Below are positions 5,780 through 9,341 of a stretch of 30,978 nucleotides of DNA, piece after piece. Under the pieces are notes generated by a model, which saw only the letters and a program-made list of their open reading frames with translations, did no database searches and was not told where the DNA came from. Every line of letters begins with the position of its first letter. Position 1 is the stretch's first letter. Origin of the DNA: a virus; IMG/VR virus record IMGVR_UViG_3300031539_000194, positions 1 to 30,978 of that record; one strand, given 5' to 3'. The position numbers were made by a program, and so were the translations under genes.

Positions 5780-5950
5780 ATGGACTTAACCGTATATCAC
5801 GCAGAAGGGTTATCCCTAATTCAACACAAGAAAGACAGCACTCAAACTCACTACACCACGCTTGTCATAAAACATAAAGACGGTGAGTTAAGGGTAGAGA
5901 TGTTTTCTAAAGAACCACTTACATTCCAACTAGGAGAATCAGATGACTAA
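5780..5950 (+). CDS. Small protein, 56 residues
   Basis: The frame starts MDLTVYHAEGLSLIQHKK and ends FQLGESDD. Two amphipathic strand pairs are suggested (THYTTLVIKHK, GELRVEMFS). The start directly abuts the preceding stop (TAA-ATG) and its own stop overlaps the annealing-protein start by 8 bases (ATGACTAA). No family recognised. It sits in the position where phages carry small accessory proteins of recombination modules. Confidence 0.65.
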   Translation: MDLTVYHAEGLSLIQHKKDSTQTHYTTLVIKHKDGELRVEMFSKEPLTFQLGESDD

Positions 5951-6455
5951 CACAGGCAAGGTAAATATTAGAGGCAAGGAGTACCTCACAGTCGCGTATC
6001 GCATTAAGCAGTTTCGTGTAGACCACCCAGACTGGCAGATCCATACGGACATTGTTCACATGGATGACGACCGCGTAGTAGTCCGCGCAGAGATTTGTGA
6101 TTCTGCAAGCGTCACCATAGCTACAGGCCACGCAGAAGAGAAGCGTTCCTCTAGCCAGATCAACCAGACCTCAGCACTAGAGAACTGCGAGTCTTCAGCA
6201 GTAGGACGAGCTTTGGCCTTTGCTGGTTACGGAGGCTCTGAAATTGCTAGTGCGGACGAAGTACAGAACGCCATCTACCAGCAGGAGAACAAGAACCCGC
6301 GAGTAGAAAAGATGACCGCAGCTGTAAACGCCTGTGGTTCATTGGAAGATCTTAAGGTGGTCTGGGGGGCCATGAATGAATCAGACAGGAAAGTAATGCA
6401 ATCTATTTTTTCTAAGCGAAAGGAACAGGTATGTCGAACCACGGAGCAAATGTAG
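5943..6455 (+). CDS. Probable single-strand annealing protein (recombinase)
   Basis: 170 residues. N-terminal strands (GKEYLTVAYRIKQFR, WQIHTDI, DDRVVVRAEI) are followed by the segment ENCESSAVGRALAFAGYG (80-97) and IASADEVQNAI. A serine-alanine-VGRAL-G segment followed by IASADE marks a family of phage annealing or Sak-type recombinases found beside YqaJ exonucleases. It would coat and pair single-stranded DNA produced by the exonuclease at 7107. The start has AGGAG seven bases upstream. A Rad52- or ERF-type label is inference. Confidence 0.65.
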   Translation: MTNTGKVNIRGKEYLTVAYRIKQFRVDHPDWQIHTDIVHMDDDRVVVRAEICDSASVTIATGHAEEKRSSSQINQTSALENCESSAVGRALAFAGYGGSEIASADEVQNAIYQQENKNPRVEKMTAAVNACGSLEDLKVVWGAMNESDRKVMQSIFSKRKEQVCRTTEQM

Positions 6456-6673
6456 TCAGAATCACCGCCTTGTGTGCGGATCTCAGAGACTTAACCGCAG
6501 CATCCCTTTTAGAAACGAAAGAACTTGAGGAGGTAATCACAAGATGTATAGAAATCCAAAAAGAGGCGTTTCATTTACAGGAGTGGGCGATGTCTGCTTT
6601 AGATATGGAGTATGCGAAAGCCTTAGACGCAAGGAAGCACAGGCTTCAACGCTTGACGGACTTGGAACAGTAG
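6431..6673 (+). CDS. Small helical protein, 80 residues
   Basis: Starts MSNHGANVVRIT behind AAAGGA and overlaps the annealing-protein 3' end by 25 bases. Residues 20-80 form long charged helices (ELEEVITRCIEIQKEAFHLQ, YAKALDARKHRLQRLTDLE) suggesting a coiled coil. No family recognised. A second frame (6544-6714) is nested in its 3' half. Confidence 0.6.
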   Translation: MSNHGANVVRITALCADLRDLTAASLLETKELEEVITRCIEIQKEAFHLQEWAMSALDMEYAKALDARKHRLQRLTDLEQ

Positions 6674-6714
6674 CCGTCCTGATGCTTTTGTTCTTTGGGT
6701 TGATGTTCCTATGA
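6544..6714 (+). CDS. Nested small membrane protein, 56 residues
   Basis: This frame runs through the 3' half of the 6431-6673 gene and past it. It starts MYRNPKRGVSFTGVGD, with AGGAGG ten bases upstream, and ends in one hydrophobic helix (GTVAVLMLLFFGLMFL). Its stop forms ATGA with the start of the next membrane-protein gene at 6711, the junction type used throughout this operon. A basic or soluble N-terminus and a C-terminal anchor would place it in the inner membrane. The TM segment plus the exact ATGA coupling argue that it is real; expression is unproven. Confidence 0.5.
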   Translation: MYRNPKRGVSFTGVGDVCFRYGVCESLRRKEAQASTLDGLGTVAVLMLLFFGLMFL

Positions 6715-6917
6715 ACTGGCTTCTGGGGTTCACAATGGGCCTTCTATCTTGTCTTATTTATCACAGGGTAGAAGAGCCTGTCCACCAGTCCGCAGAGGTT
6801 GCAGATGTCATCCAAGCCTACAAGCAGGGTGCTAAAGATTTACTGCGACTGAATCCGATAGACGCTCGGCTTGAATCAACCTGTATCCAAATCTGGGGAA
6901 TGAAACAAAATGATTGA
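6711..6917 (+). CDS. Small membrane-anchored protein, 68 residues
   Basis: The N-terminus MNWLLGFTMGLLSCLIYH is a single transmembrane or uncleaved signal segment. It is followed by a short helical domain (EVADVIQAYKQGAKDLLRLN) that probably faces the cytoplasm or periplasm. The start overlaps the stop of the nested frame (ATGA) and its stop overlaps the next gene by 8 bases. Family not recognised. Confidence 0.6.
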   Translation: MNWLLGFTMGLLSCLIYHRVEEPVHQSAEVADVIQAYKQGAKDLLRLNPIDARLESTCIQIWGMKQND

Positions 6918-7110
6918 GATACTGTTAAAATGTGAGACAGCAGACGAGGCCCAGATGTACCTAGAAGCTCCAAAGGTGCGAGGTGCTGCGGACGACTTTG
7001 CGTACTGGCTCCGCAATAAGATTAAACACGGAAGCCACACAGAAGAAGAACACGCCTTGCTGGAGGAGGTAAGTGAGGAATTTTATGACCGAGTAGGAGG
7101 AATGCTGTGA
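6910..7110 (+). CDS. Small conserved phage protein, 66 residues
   Basis: MIEILLKCETADEAQMYLEAP, then DDFAYWLRNKIKHG, then an acidic helix (EEEHALLEEVSEEFYDRV). Short proteins with a beta strand followed by a (F/W)xxWLRxxIK helix are frequent next to phage exonuclease genes and have no known role. Starts within the preceding gene (ATGATTGA) and ends in a GTGA overlap with the exonuclease start. Confidence 0.65.
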   Translation: MIEILLKCETADEAQMYLEAPKVRGAADDFAYWLRNKIKHGSHTEEEHALLEEVSEEFYDRVGGML

Positions 7111-7736
7111 GAGAAGAAAACAAGTTACAAGGTAGTGGTGCGTGGTTTAACGCCCGCACAGGAAAACTAACCGCCAGTCGCATGAAGAACGCCATGAAGT
7201 ACCTAAAAGGTGGGGGCGATTCTGCGGAGCGCAAGGGTCTGAAGATAGAGATTCTCTGCGAACGTCTGACTGGTGACATCGTAGACAAGTTCGTAAACCA
7301 GGCTATGCAATGGGGCATAGAGAAAGAACCCGAGGCTAAGGAGGCTTACGAGCAGCGCACAGGCCGTCTTATTAAGGATGTGGGTTTTGTAGACCACCCC
7401 AAGATTGAGTTCTGCGGAGCTAGTCCTGATGGCTTGGTGGACGATGGTCTGATAGAAATTAAATGCCCAACGAGCAGCACTTTTCTAAGCTGGATTCTTG
7501 CTGGAGTCGTTCCTGATGATCACAAGCCGCAGATGGCCCTACAAGCCGCCTGTACGGGTCGTCCCTGGGTTGATTTTGTAGCGTATGACCCAAGGATGCC
7601 AGAGCCACAGAGGTTGTTTGTACGCAGGTACACGCCTACTCAGGAAGAGATTGCGGAAGTGGAAGCAGAGGCAGTTAAGTTTTTGCAGGAAATAGAAGCT
7701 ATGTTTGACGAACTTTCCAAAGTGGAGATGCTATGA
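7107..7736 (+). CDS. YqaJ/lambda-type alkaline exonuclease
   Basis: 209 residues with a GTG start in a GTGA overlap. W13 and LTASRMKNAM begin the YqaJ fold; WGIEKEPEA (69-77) supplies the conserved glutamates; GASPDGLV (104-111) and LIEIKCP (115-121) give the catalytic D108, E117 and K119 of the PD-(D/E)XK site; HKPQMALQAACTG follows as the conserved Q-M-Q helix. It would degrade one strand of duplex DNA to feed the annealing protein. All expected catalytic residues are present and the length is typical. Confidence 0.9.
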   Translation: MREENKLQGSGAWFNARTGKLTASRMKNAMKYLKGGGDSAERKGLKIEILCERLTGDIVDKFVNQAMQWGIEKEPEAKEAYEQRTGRLIKDVGFVDHPKIEFCGASPDGLVDDGLIEIKCPTSSTFLSWILAGVVPDDHKPQMALQAACTGRPWVDFVAYDPRMPEPQRLFVRRYTPTQEEIAEVEAEAVKFLQEIEAMFDELSKVEML

Positions 7737-7993
7737 GCTACGACAATACAAATAGTGGGATGCTGGCCCGCAACGACAAAAAAGAGACAGAGAAACACCC
7801 CGATTTTAAGGGGAGCATAAATGTAGATGGGGTGGAGTATTGGCTGAGTGCCTGGGTGAAAGAAGGCAAGGAGGGGGGCAAGATGGAGGGCAGGAAGTTC
7901 TTCTCCCTATCCGTTAGCCCGAAAGAGCAAGCTGCGCCTAAGCCCAAGGCAACATCTTTTGACCAGCTAGATGACGATATTCCAGGGTGGTAG
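7733..7993 (+). CDS. Single-stranded DNA-binding-like protein
   Basis: 86 residues. NSGMLARNDKK, then HPDFKGSINVDGVEYWLSAW, then KFFSLSVSPKE form an OB-like set of strands, followed by a flexible linker and a C-terminal tip LDDDIPGW. That tip mimics the acidic SSB C-terminus (DDDIPF) that docks host replication and repair proteins. Start overlaps the exonuclease stop (ATGA). It is the last gene of the recombination operon, completing an exonuclease-annealer-SSB set. OB fold is inferred from strand pattern. Confidence 0.7.
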   Translation: MSYDNTNSGMLARNDKKETEKHPDFKGSINVDGVEYWLSAWVKEGKEGGKMEGRKFFSLSVSPKEQAAPKPKATSFDQLDDDIPGW

Positions 7994-8128: not shown

Positions 8129-8497
8129 CTAATACGACCAAACGGTAGGACGTAAGTCGTTATCCAGGTCGTCTAGGTGTATAAACCGCCCCTCACCCTT
8201 CTGCTGGACTCCAATGCCTGTAAATCCTACTTCTAGGGCTATTTTAAGCAGCCTGTGAGCTTCCTCGCCTCGTACCGCTACATCGGCAGCATGACCGCTT
8301 GCGTGTGCGCCAGGGCGGGCTTTCTTGGCCTCCAAGGGATGTTTGGCACATCTGTAACCTGAGCTGATACGCATAGGCCCAAAAATATCACGGGCCTTCT
8401 GGAGCCTCTCCATAAACTCAGGGTTCATTTCGTTAGCCCCGCAATGCTGGCAGTCAAATTCTTGTGCGGAGAAATTAGGATAGTCTGACCAGTTCAC
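8129..8497 (-). CDS. Endolysin, peptidase M15 family (D-Ala carboxypeptidase fold)
   Basis: 122 residues, GTG start in a GTGA overlap with the holin gene. PMRISSGYRCAKHP (41-54) and GAHASGHAAD (63-72) carry the first zinc ligands (H65/H69 and D72 region), and RFIHLDD (104-110) the last (H107). This is the order in M15A endopeptidases that cut peptidoglycan stem peptides. No signal peptide, so release depends on the neighbouring holin. N-terminal C16-x2-C19 is unusual. It is the last gene of the late operon. Confidence 0.88.
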   Translation of the reverse strand: MNWSDYPNFSAQEFDCQHCGANEMNPEFMERLQKARDIFGPMRISSGYRCAKHPLEAKKARPGAHASGHAADVAVRGEEAHRLLKIALEVGFTGIGVQQKGEGRFIHLDDLDNDLRPTVWSY

Positions 8498-8883
8498 TTT
8501 ATTCCCCTGGCTTTCTCAAACGTCCGTAATCCACCAAGTCCTAACATACCCATCAGAACAGTCATCAGAGAGGCCATATCAAACTCTGGCAGATCGGGAA
8601 TAGGGTGGCCTAGATAGGTCATCACAAAAATTAGGAGGGGCTGTAGCACAAAGTGGTAGGCAAACGCAGTACCGCAAGTCCAGCCGATAAAAGGTCTCCA
8701 GCCGCCTCTAAATACGTCCTGCTTGGCTTCTTCTTTGTTGACATCTATCTGGGCAAGTGCAATTTCGTGACCATGCCTTTCTGCCATCGTAGCTATCTCT
8801 GCTGCTAATCTCTGCTTCTCGGTAGCGTCAGGGATAAACTTATCCAGTAAAGAAGCAACTGGGCCTATAAGAGCTTGGATCAT
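8494..8883 (-). CDS. Holin, GTA-type three-transmembrane family
   Basis: 129 residues from the ATG at 8883 (MIQALIGPVASLLDKFIPD), with GGAG five bases upstream; 24 further upstream codons are not needed. Residues 1-60 are an amphipathic, helical cytoplasmic part with EKQRLAAEIATM; then GWRPFIGWTCGTAFAYHF (61-78), LLIFVMTYL (83-91) and MASLMTVLMGMLGLGGLRTFEK (103-124) provide membrane segments. This matches holins of gene-transfer agents and many proteobacterial phages. It overlaps both neighbours by 4 bases. Confidence 0.85.
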   Translation of the reverse strand: MIQALIGPVASLLDKFIPDATEKQRLAAEIATMAERHGHEIALAQIDVNKEEAKQDVFRGGWRPFIGWTCGTAFAYHFVLQPLLIFVMTYLGHPIPDLPEFDMASLMTVLMGMLGLGGLRTFEKARGIK

Positions 8884-9341
8884 CTGGTCTCCAAAAATAG
8901 ATAAAGGGCAAGCCCCGCAATGCCAAGAATCGTGACCACTAGGACGATCATCCACAGGGTCAGCATAATGTTTTCTAGGAGTTTCTTTCTGCGGGCTTTC
9001 TCTGCAAGTTGTTTCCGCAGCACCTCGCGTTCCTCTGCTTCTCTGTTCTGTCTGGCTTTTACCCTGAAGGCTTGGAAGTCGTCCCAGAGGCCAGGACGAC
9101 CCTGATAGATCAGAAGCTCTTTTAGTTCTTGTTCTTGTTTTCTGAGTTGCTCAAGGGCGAGAAATTCTTCCAGGTCGGAACGCTTTCTCTTTGGCGTTTT
9201 CTTGACTTCCTCTTCAATCTTACTTGTCGCGGAGAAGTAATCGACAATCGCCTTACCAGCAGACGCAATCTCTCCTGAGTTCTTTATAGCAGTCTTGATG
9301 ACCGCGAAAGCCGCGTTTGCAGCGGCTATCTCCGCAATCAC
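8880..9341 (-). CDS. Coiled-coil protein with C-terminal membrane anchor
   Basis: 153 residues with a GTG start sharing one base with the previous stop. A weakly hydrophobic N-terminus (IAEIAAANAAFAVIK) precedes a long charged coiled coil (about 55-120, EEFLALEQLRKQEQELKELL and later AEEREVLRKQLAEKARRKK), then one strong transmembrane helix (LWMIVLVVTILGIAGLALYLF). Located directly upstream of the holin, it is a lysis-cassette or virion-associated accessory protein. The C-terminal anchor is opposite to a normal i-spanin. Family and role are not known. Confidence 0.7.
   Translation of the reverse strand: MIAEIAAANAAFAVIKTAIKNSGEIASAGKAIVDYFSATSKIEEEVKKTPKRKRSDLEEFLALEQLRKQEQELKELLIYQGRPGLWDDFQAFRVKARQNREAEEREVLRKQLAEKARRKKLLENIMLTLWMIVLVVTILGIAGLALYLFLETR

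Follow-up and report, generated by a model that had tools for sequence, protein, structure and literature searches.

The spanin genes Rz and Rz1 in the lysis cassette of phage lambda are nested, with Rz1 specifying a lipoprotein of the outer membrane and Rz a protein of the inner membrane (PMC5295617, PMC6139136). Upstream shift of a start codon and loss of a stop codon are known routes to gene overlap (classes a and b of PMC2268670), the start shift having also been raised in a reviewer's comment (PMC2174442), and htgA within yaaW is an example of an overprinted gene, that is, one that arose de novo (PMC2268670). We analyzed a 30,978-nt stretch of DNA from an uncultured virus (the whole of IMG/VR record IMGVR_UViG_3300031539_000194; hereafter the window) in which a short frame, ORF B, starts within ORF A and runs beyond its end. 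Like Rz and Rz1, the pair comprises a small phage membrane-associated gene that sits within a second gene in a different frame. Unlike Rz1, B and its 9 homologues show no signal sequence with a lipobox when inspected by eye and carry a C-terminal helix; in addition, the product of A is predicted to be soluble and two-helical rather than an inner-membrane protein like Rz, and the locus lies between the genes for a putative annealing protein and an exonuclease, with the holin and peptidase encoded at 8129–8955 on the other strand. As in htgA/yaaW, two proteins would be read from one DNA stretch, but the functional part of B has a free-standing homologue, which argues against its invention from the alternative frame of A. 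The locus fits classes a and b in that the start of B would have moved upstream and the stop of A downstream, extending a 4-nt overlap to 130 nt; it differs in that both states are visible in sister clades and that most of the conserved domain falls beyond the overlap.

The A-B-C locus and its predicted products

The features of the locus are collected in Table 1. B occupies the -1 frame relative to A (6431–6673) and overlaps it by 130 nt, confirming the original prediction of a 56-codon frame through the 3' part of that gene. From the annealing-protein gene onward, each neighboring pair of operon genes overlaps by 4–25 nt, with the exception of A and B; without B the operon contains one 37-nt gap (from A to C), and with B no junction is gapped. 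A is overlapped at both ends, by 25 nt (6431–6455) with the 3' end of the annealing-protein gene and by 130 nt with B. The function of PHROG 11717, which the product of 5943–6455 matches, is listed as unknown in PHROGs; the corresponding position in related phages is annotated 'erf superfamily' or 'SAK-like'. Among terminases, the nearest to that of the window virus come from an environmental podovirus (MW202481) and Methylophilales phage Venkman, at 61–63% identity.

Table 1. Genes and elements of the locus and its surroundings, in window coordinates.
Feature	Position	Strand	Description
Putative single-strand annealing protein (ERF-like)	5943–6455	+	PHROG 11717, E 3.5e-37; overlaps A by 25 nt
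ORF A	6431–6673	+	80 aa (77 aa in four relatives); two helices (AF2 pLDDT 80)
Ribosome-binding site of B, GAGGAGGTA	6527–6535	+	-13.1 kcal/mol; A codons 32–34 without silent change
ORF B	6544–6714	+	predicted 56-aa single-helix membrane protein; ATG, open frame and exact length in 10/10 complete copies
Conserved core of B, LDG plus hydrophobic helix (LDGLGTVAVLMLLFFGLMFL)	6652–6711	+	pN/pS 0.17; probably homologous to B'
ORF C	6711–6917	+	68 aa, membrane anchor at the N-terminus; homologues in L028 and the sister clade
D	6910–7110	+	early recombination operon
YqaJ/RecE-like exonuclease	7107–7736	+	PHROG 149, E 1.5e-35
SSB	7733–7993	+	recombination operon
Lysis cassette: M15/MepK-like (M15-type) peptidase and GTA_holin_3TM holin	8129–8955	-	holin Pfam E 8e-21

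The AGGAGG previously assigned to B lies within GAGGAGGTA, 8 nt upstream of the B ATG, and its computed duplex energy with the 16S tail is -13.1 kcal/mol; none of the other window ATGs (813 in all) is preceded by a site this strong. The stop of B and the ATG of C share the sequence ATGA at 6711, the predicted junction with a membrane-anchored next gene. Because the ribosome-binding site of C does not rise above background (for 26% of the ATGs in the window it is equally good), re-initiation from B is likely: translation of B would initiate at 6544, and C would be re-initiated at the ATGA after B terminates. Just upstream of the B stop, GGGTTGATGTT (6700–6710) is identical in all copies, silent positions included, and is unchanged also where C is displaced from B; it could act as a weak ribosome-binding site of C or as some other RNA element. 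C itself belongs to a broader family of small phage proteins that are anchored at the N-terminus and share the conserved C-terminus AY..G..DAL..NP....LE..C..LW (the window, L028, L029, L030 and L103–L117, the membership of L029 and L030 being judged by eye only), for which we found no Pfam or NCBIfam match and no usable PHROG match.

The final 17 residues of B are strongly hydrophobic in every relative (mean Kyte-Doolittle 2.6–2.8), and AF2 models them as part of a C-terminal helix (pLDDT about 90), the single helix being the only fold predicted; both results support the terminal transmembrane helix read from the sequence originally. B and its 9 homologues all start with M[YHS] and end in this helix, and the N-terminus is net basic across relatives (+1 to +6), which together with the helix suggests an inner-membrane protein with its N-terminus inside. 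The hydrophobic helix (last 12–18 codons) lies mostly beyond the end of A, and the membrane part is thus hardly nested.

B gave nothing usable in PADLOC (no match), Pfam (none above cut-off), NCBIfam (no match) or PHROGs, any matches being weak; no homologues of A were found in bacterial genomes, and a tblastn search of 50,697 annotated phage records with A, B and C and their sister-clade counterparts A', B' and C' identified no homologues. A basic N-terminus and one terminal helix is the shape of some lysis and exclusion peptides, and by this analogy B might be a lysis, superinfection-exclusion or defence peptide, as had been proposed. We consider such a role unlikely, and it found no support here: the M15-type peptidase and GTA_holin_3TM holin are located elsewhere, no lipobox is evident in B by eye, no known defence profile in PADLOC matches it, and it is part of a recombination operon.

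Conservation of B and selection on the two frames

To collect relatives, IMG/VR was queried with A, B and C and with their neighbors encoding the annealing protein and the exonuclease. In the 10 complete copies of B, including that of the window, A is 74–98% identical to the window sequence. B is open from the same ATG over exactly 56 codons in all 10, and its length is unaffected in the four relatives in which A stops 3 codons earlier; none of the 10 contains the in-frame stops that had been named as evidence against the gene. B thus keeps its frame, start and stop in diverged relatives, as a protein-coding overlap should, supporting the suggestion that a gene had been missed. When the overlap was recoded synonymously with the amino acids of A fixed, the B frame was open in 5–21% of cases per sequence, or in 8–33% with early-gene codon usage. 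None of the 58 A-silent changes inferred on the tree within the overlap created a stop in B, against an expectation of 3.7 (P = 0.02), and the remaining forward frame over the B stretch contains 2–5 stops.

All 11 sequences that extend over the ATG and ribosome-binding site of B retain both. Codons 32–34 of A, which encode the ribosome-binding site, show zero silent changes among these sequences (n = 11), and the third base of A codon 38, needed for the B ATG, is always A, even where Arg has been replaced by Lys (L012, in which the ATG is retained); only about a third of the Arg codons of the window phage end in A.

By pN/pS ratios, which are descriptive only since the sequence pairs are non-independent, A is under purifying selection over its whole length (0.15–0.20), residues 1–37 of B show no amino-acid-level constraint (1.39), and residues 38–56 show amino-acid-level selection (0.17). 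Over the first 20 overlap codons, silent sites of A vary freely (pS of 0.78 for residues 39–48 and 0.74 for residues 49–58, versus 0.49 in the non-overlapping part) and less so in the last 20 (0.46 and 0.40). The synonymous-site freedom that had been named as evidence against the gene is seen early in the overlap but not throughout it, and at the ribosome-binding site silent sites are invariant. Codon position 2 is a determinant of hydrophobicity, and in the 12 codons of B that lie outside A it varies at 0 of 12 sites versus 16 of 24 at the other positions (p = 1.7e-4). Judged from these sequence comparisons, the conserved unit of B is the LDG motif and helix, and the N-terminal part need only stay open.

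Between B codon 14 and the helix, 8 of the 10 window-clade copies have no in-frame ATG, GTG or TTG, and the sole extra in-frame start in the other two is a GTG at codon 26; with almost no alternative start before it, the helix now relies on the ATG further upstream. A GTG at codon 14 was considered as an alternative start and rejected, as it is forced by Glu-Trp in A (GAR TGG giving RTG) and lacks a spaced ribosome-binding site.

One contig (IMGVR 3300036770_000541; 39,395 bases) carries two different A-B-C copies, one close to a contig end and the other some 33.7 kb away from it (L092 106–589 and L094 5466–5961; also L002 and L003), with A 91% and 94–95% identical to that of the window. The two copies could reflect a two-strain assembly or a real duplication.

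Free-standing B' genes in a sister clade

A scan with the exonuclease identified a sister clade (exonuclease 67–74% identical, same gene order) in which the counterpart of B, termed B', is free-standing. B' comprises 25–32 codons and is present in L103, L105, L106, L108, L114, L115 and L117; examples are MNEYLDGALVAIVLAALFVLLNFLPEVLYGL (L105, 1894–1989), MKDGILTAIFCISLFLLLNFLPEVL (L103), MNEYWDGAGVAIFLAALFLLLNFLPEML (L108) and MNENLDGFLVALCLAALFLMVNFLPGLFL (L115). Its first 4 nt overlap the end of A' (in L108, that of an inserted ORF), and its own end overlaps C' by 4–11 nt. In five of the seven copies of the junction table, an in-frame stop lies 3–7 codons upstream of B', which makes the nested form impossible there. 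The description of B as a nested gene accordingly stands as regards a real overlap with A, but not as regards a gene born nested, since the helix gene of the sister clade stands alone. Divergence in B' is mostly silent (7 silent and 0 replacement changes between L115 and L117), and its only PHROG match is insignificant (E 0.17).

Several relatives carry genes inserted beside B or B'. In L088 (9306–9994), two ORFs lie between B and C (164 aa, rich in Lys, Arg and Glu, with no family match; 65 aa), the chain of overlapping starts is retained despite the insert, and C starts with GTG. An apparent loss of C in L008 was rejected, because two ORFs are inserted and C lies downstream with a GTG start. 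L108 (1659–1844) and L182 (before 3004) each have a 61-aa insert, the ORF MNYSNREEVKAYVDKM..., between A' and B', and L182 has a second insert, an ORF of about 142 codons, between B' and C'. B in L088 and B' in L108 and L182 persist beside these genes, with the B' sequence kept in L182 and that of B in L088, so their role goes beyond connecting A with C.

This persistence bears on whether B serves mainly as a translation relay, in which the internal ribosome-binding site loads ribosomes that restart on C at the ATGA and the peptide is a by-product. The background-level ribosome-binding site of C and the overlap of its ATG with the B stop are what such a relay would need, but the helix is under amino-acid selection and survives both in L088, with two ORFs before C, and in L182, with genes flanking B', which leaves a by-product peptide quite improbable.

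Comparison of the B and B' profiles by hhalign aligned 22 columns with 45% identity (E 2.4e-5, Prob 76), the moderate probability reflecting that both profiles are short and shallow. A and A' matched more weakly (E 8e-5, Prob 60), and C and C' matched by tblastn at E of about 1e-5 to 1e-12. B and B' share an LDG/DG motif followed by a single helix, occupy the slot between A/A' and C/C', and overlap the start of C or C'. Alternatively, B might have been overprinted de novo within A, with B' an unrelated hydrophobic peptide at the same place; both are short and hydrophobic, and similarity between such sequences is easily obtained. Against this, no column-permuted profile reached the observed score, whether the permutation was confined to the helix (0 of 200) or took in nearly all columns (0 of 200), and the two have the same relative frame, slot and LDG motif, so that an independent origin appears very improbable. 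B and B' are most likely one gene.

Origin of the overlap and significance

The -1 frame of B and the confinement of protein-level selection to its tail would also suit a -1 ribosomal frameshift that appends the helix to A as a membrane tail and leaves the ATG at 6544 unused, but this has only a slight chance of being correct given that no slippery heptamer is common to all relatives (in an alignment read by eye rather than scanned), that the ATG and ribosome-binding site are kept wherever covered, and that the helix is a separate gene in the sister clade.

We conclude that B is very probably a real single-helix inner-membrane microprotein whose working part is the C-terminal LDG motif and helix (about 20 residues), that it is homologous to free-standing B', and that its overlap with A most likely arose from a moved start. 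The starting state would have been a free-standing gene of 25–32 codons in an overlapping A'-B'-C' chain. In the window clade, the A stop would have shifted downstream beyond the LDG motif with loss of the old B start, and a new start would have been taken up at an ATG about 35 codons upstream, within A, served by the very strong ribosome-binding site. Residues 1–36 would then be a tolerated extension with a sequence dictated by A, and the protein would be inserted in the inner membrane with its basic N-terminus inside. We infer the direction of change, from free-standing to nested, because the sequence of the extension is set by A and only the LDG motif and helix are common to B and B'. On these comparative grounds, the nesting of B most likely represents a start-codon shift and not the birth of a new gene.

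As to function, we tentatively propose that B, co-produced with the recombination proteins, might either partner or regulate C at the membrane or be an early microprotein that modifies the membrane. More speculatively, and with less likelihood, A-B-C could be an undescribed three-part module of recombination operons in which a peptide of 25–32 residues tethers or regulates recombination at the membrane, one clade having gained an N-terminal domain read from A.

B and B' add an unannotated family of phage membrane proteins of 25–56 residues. With the ordinary and nested forms of what is most likely one gene side by side, the upstream-start route to gene overlap becomes directly testable, and the locus illustrates that a nested frame need not imply overprinting.
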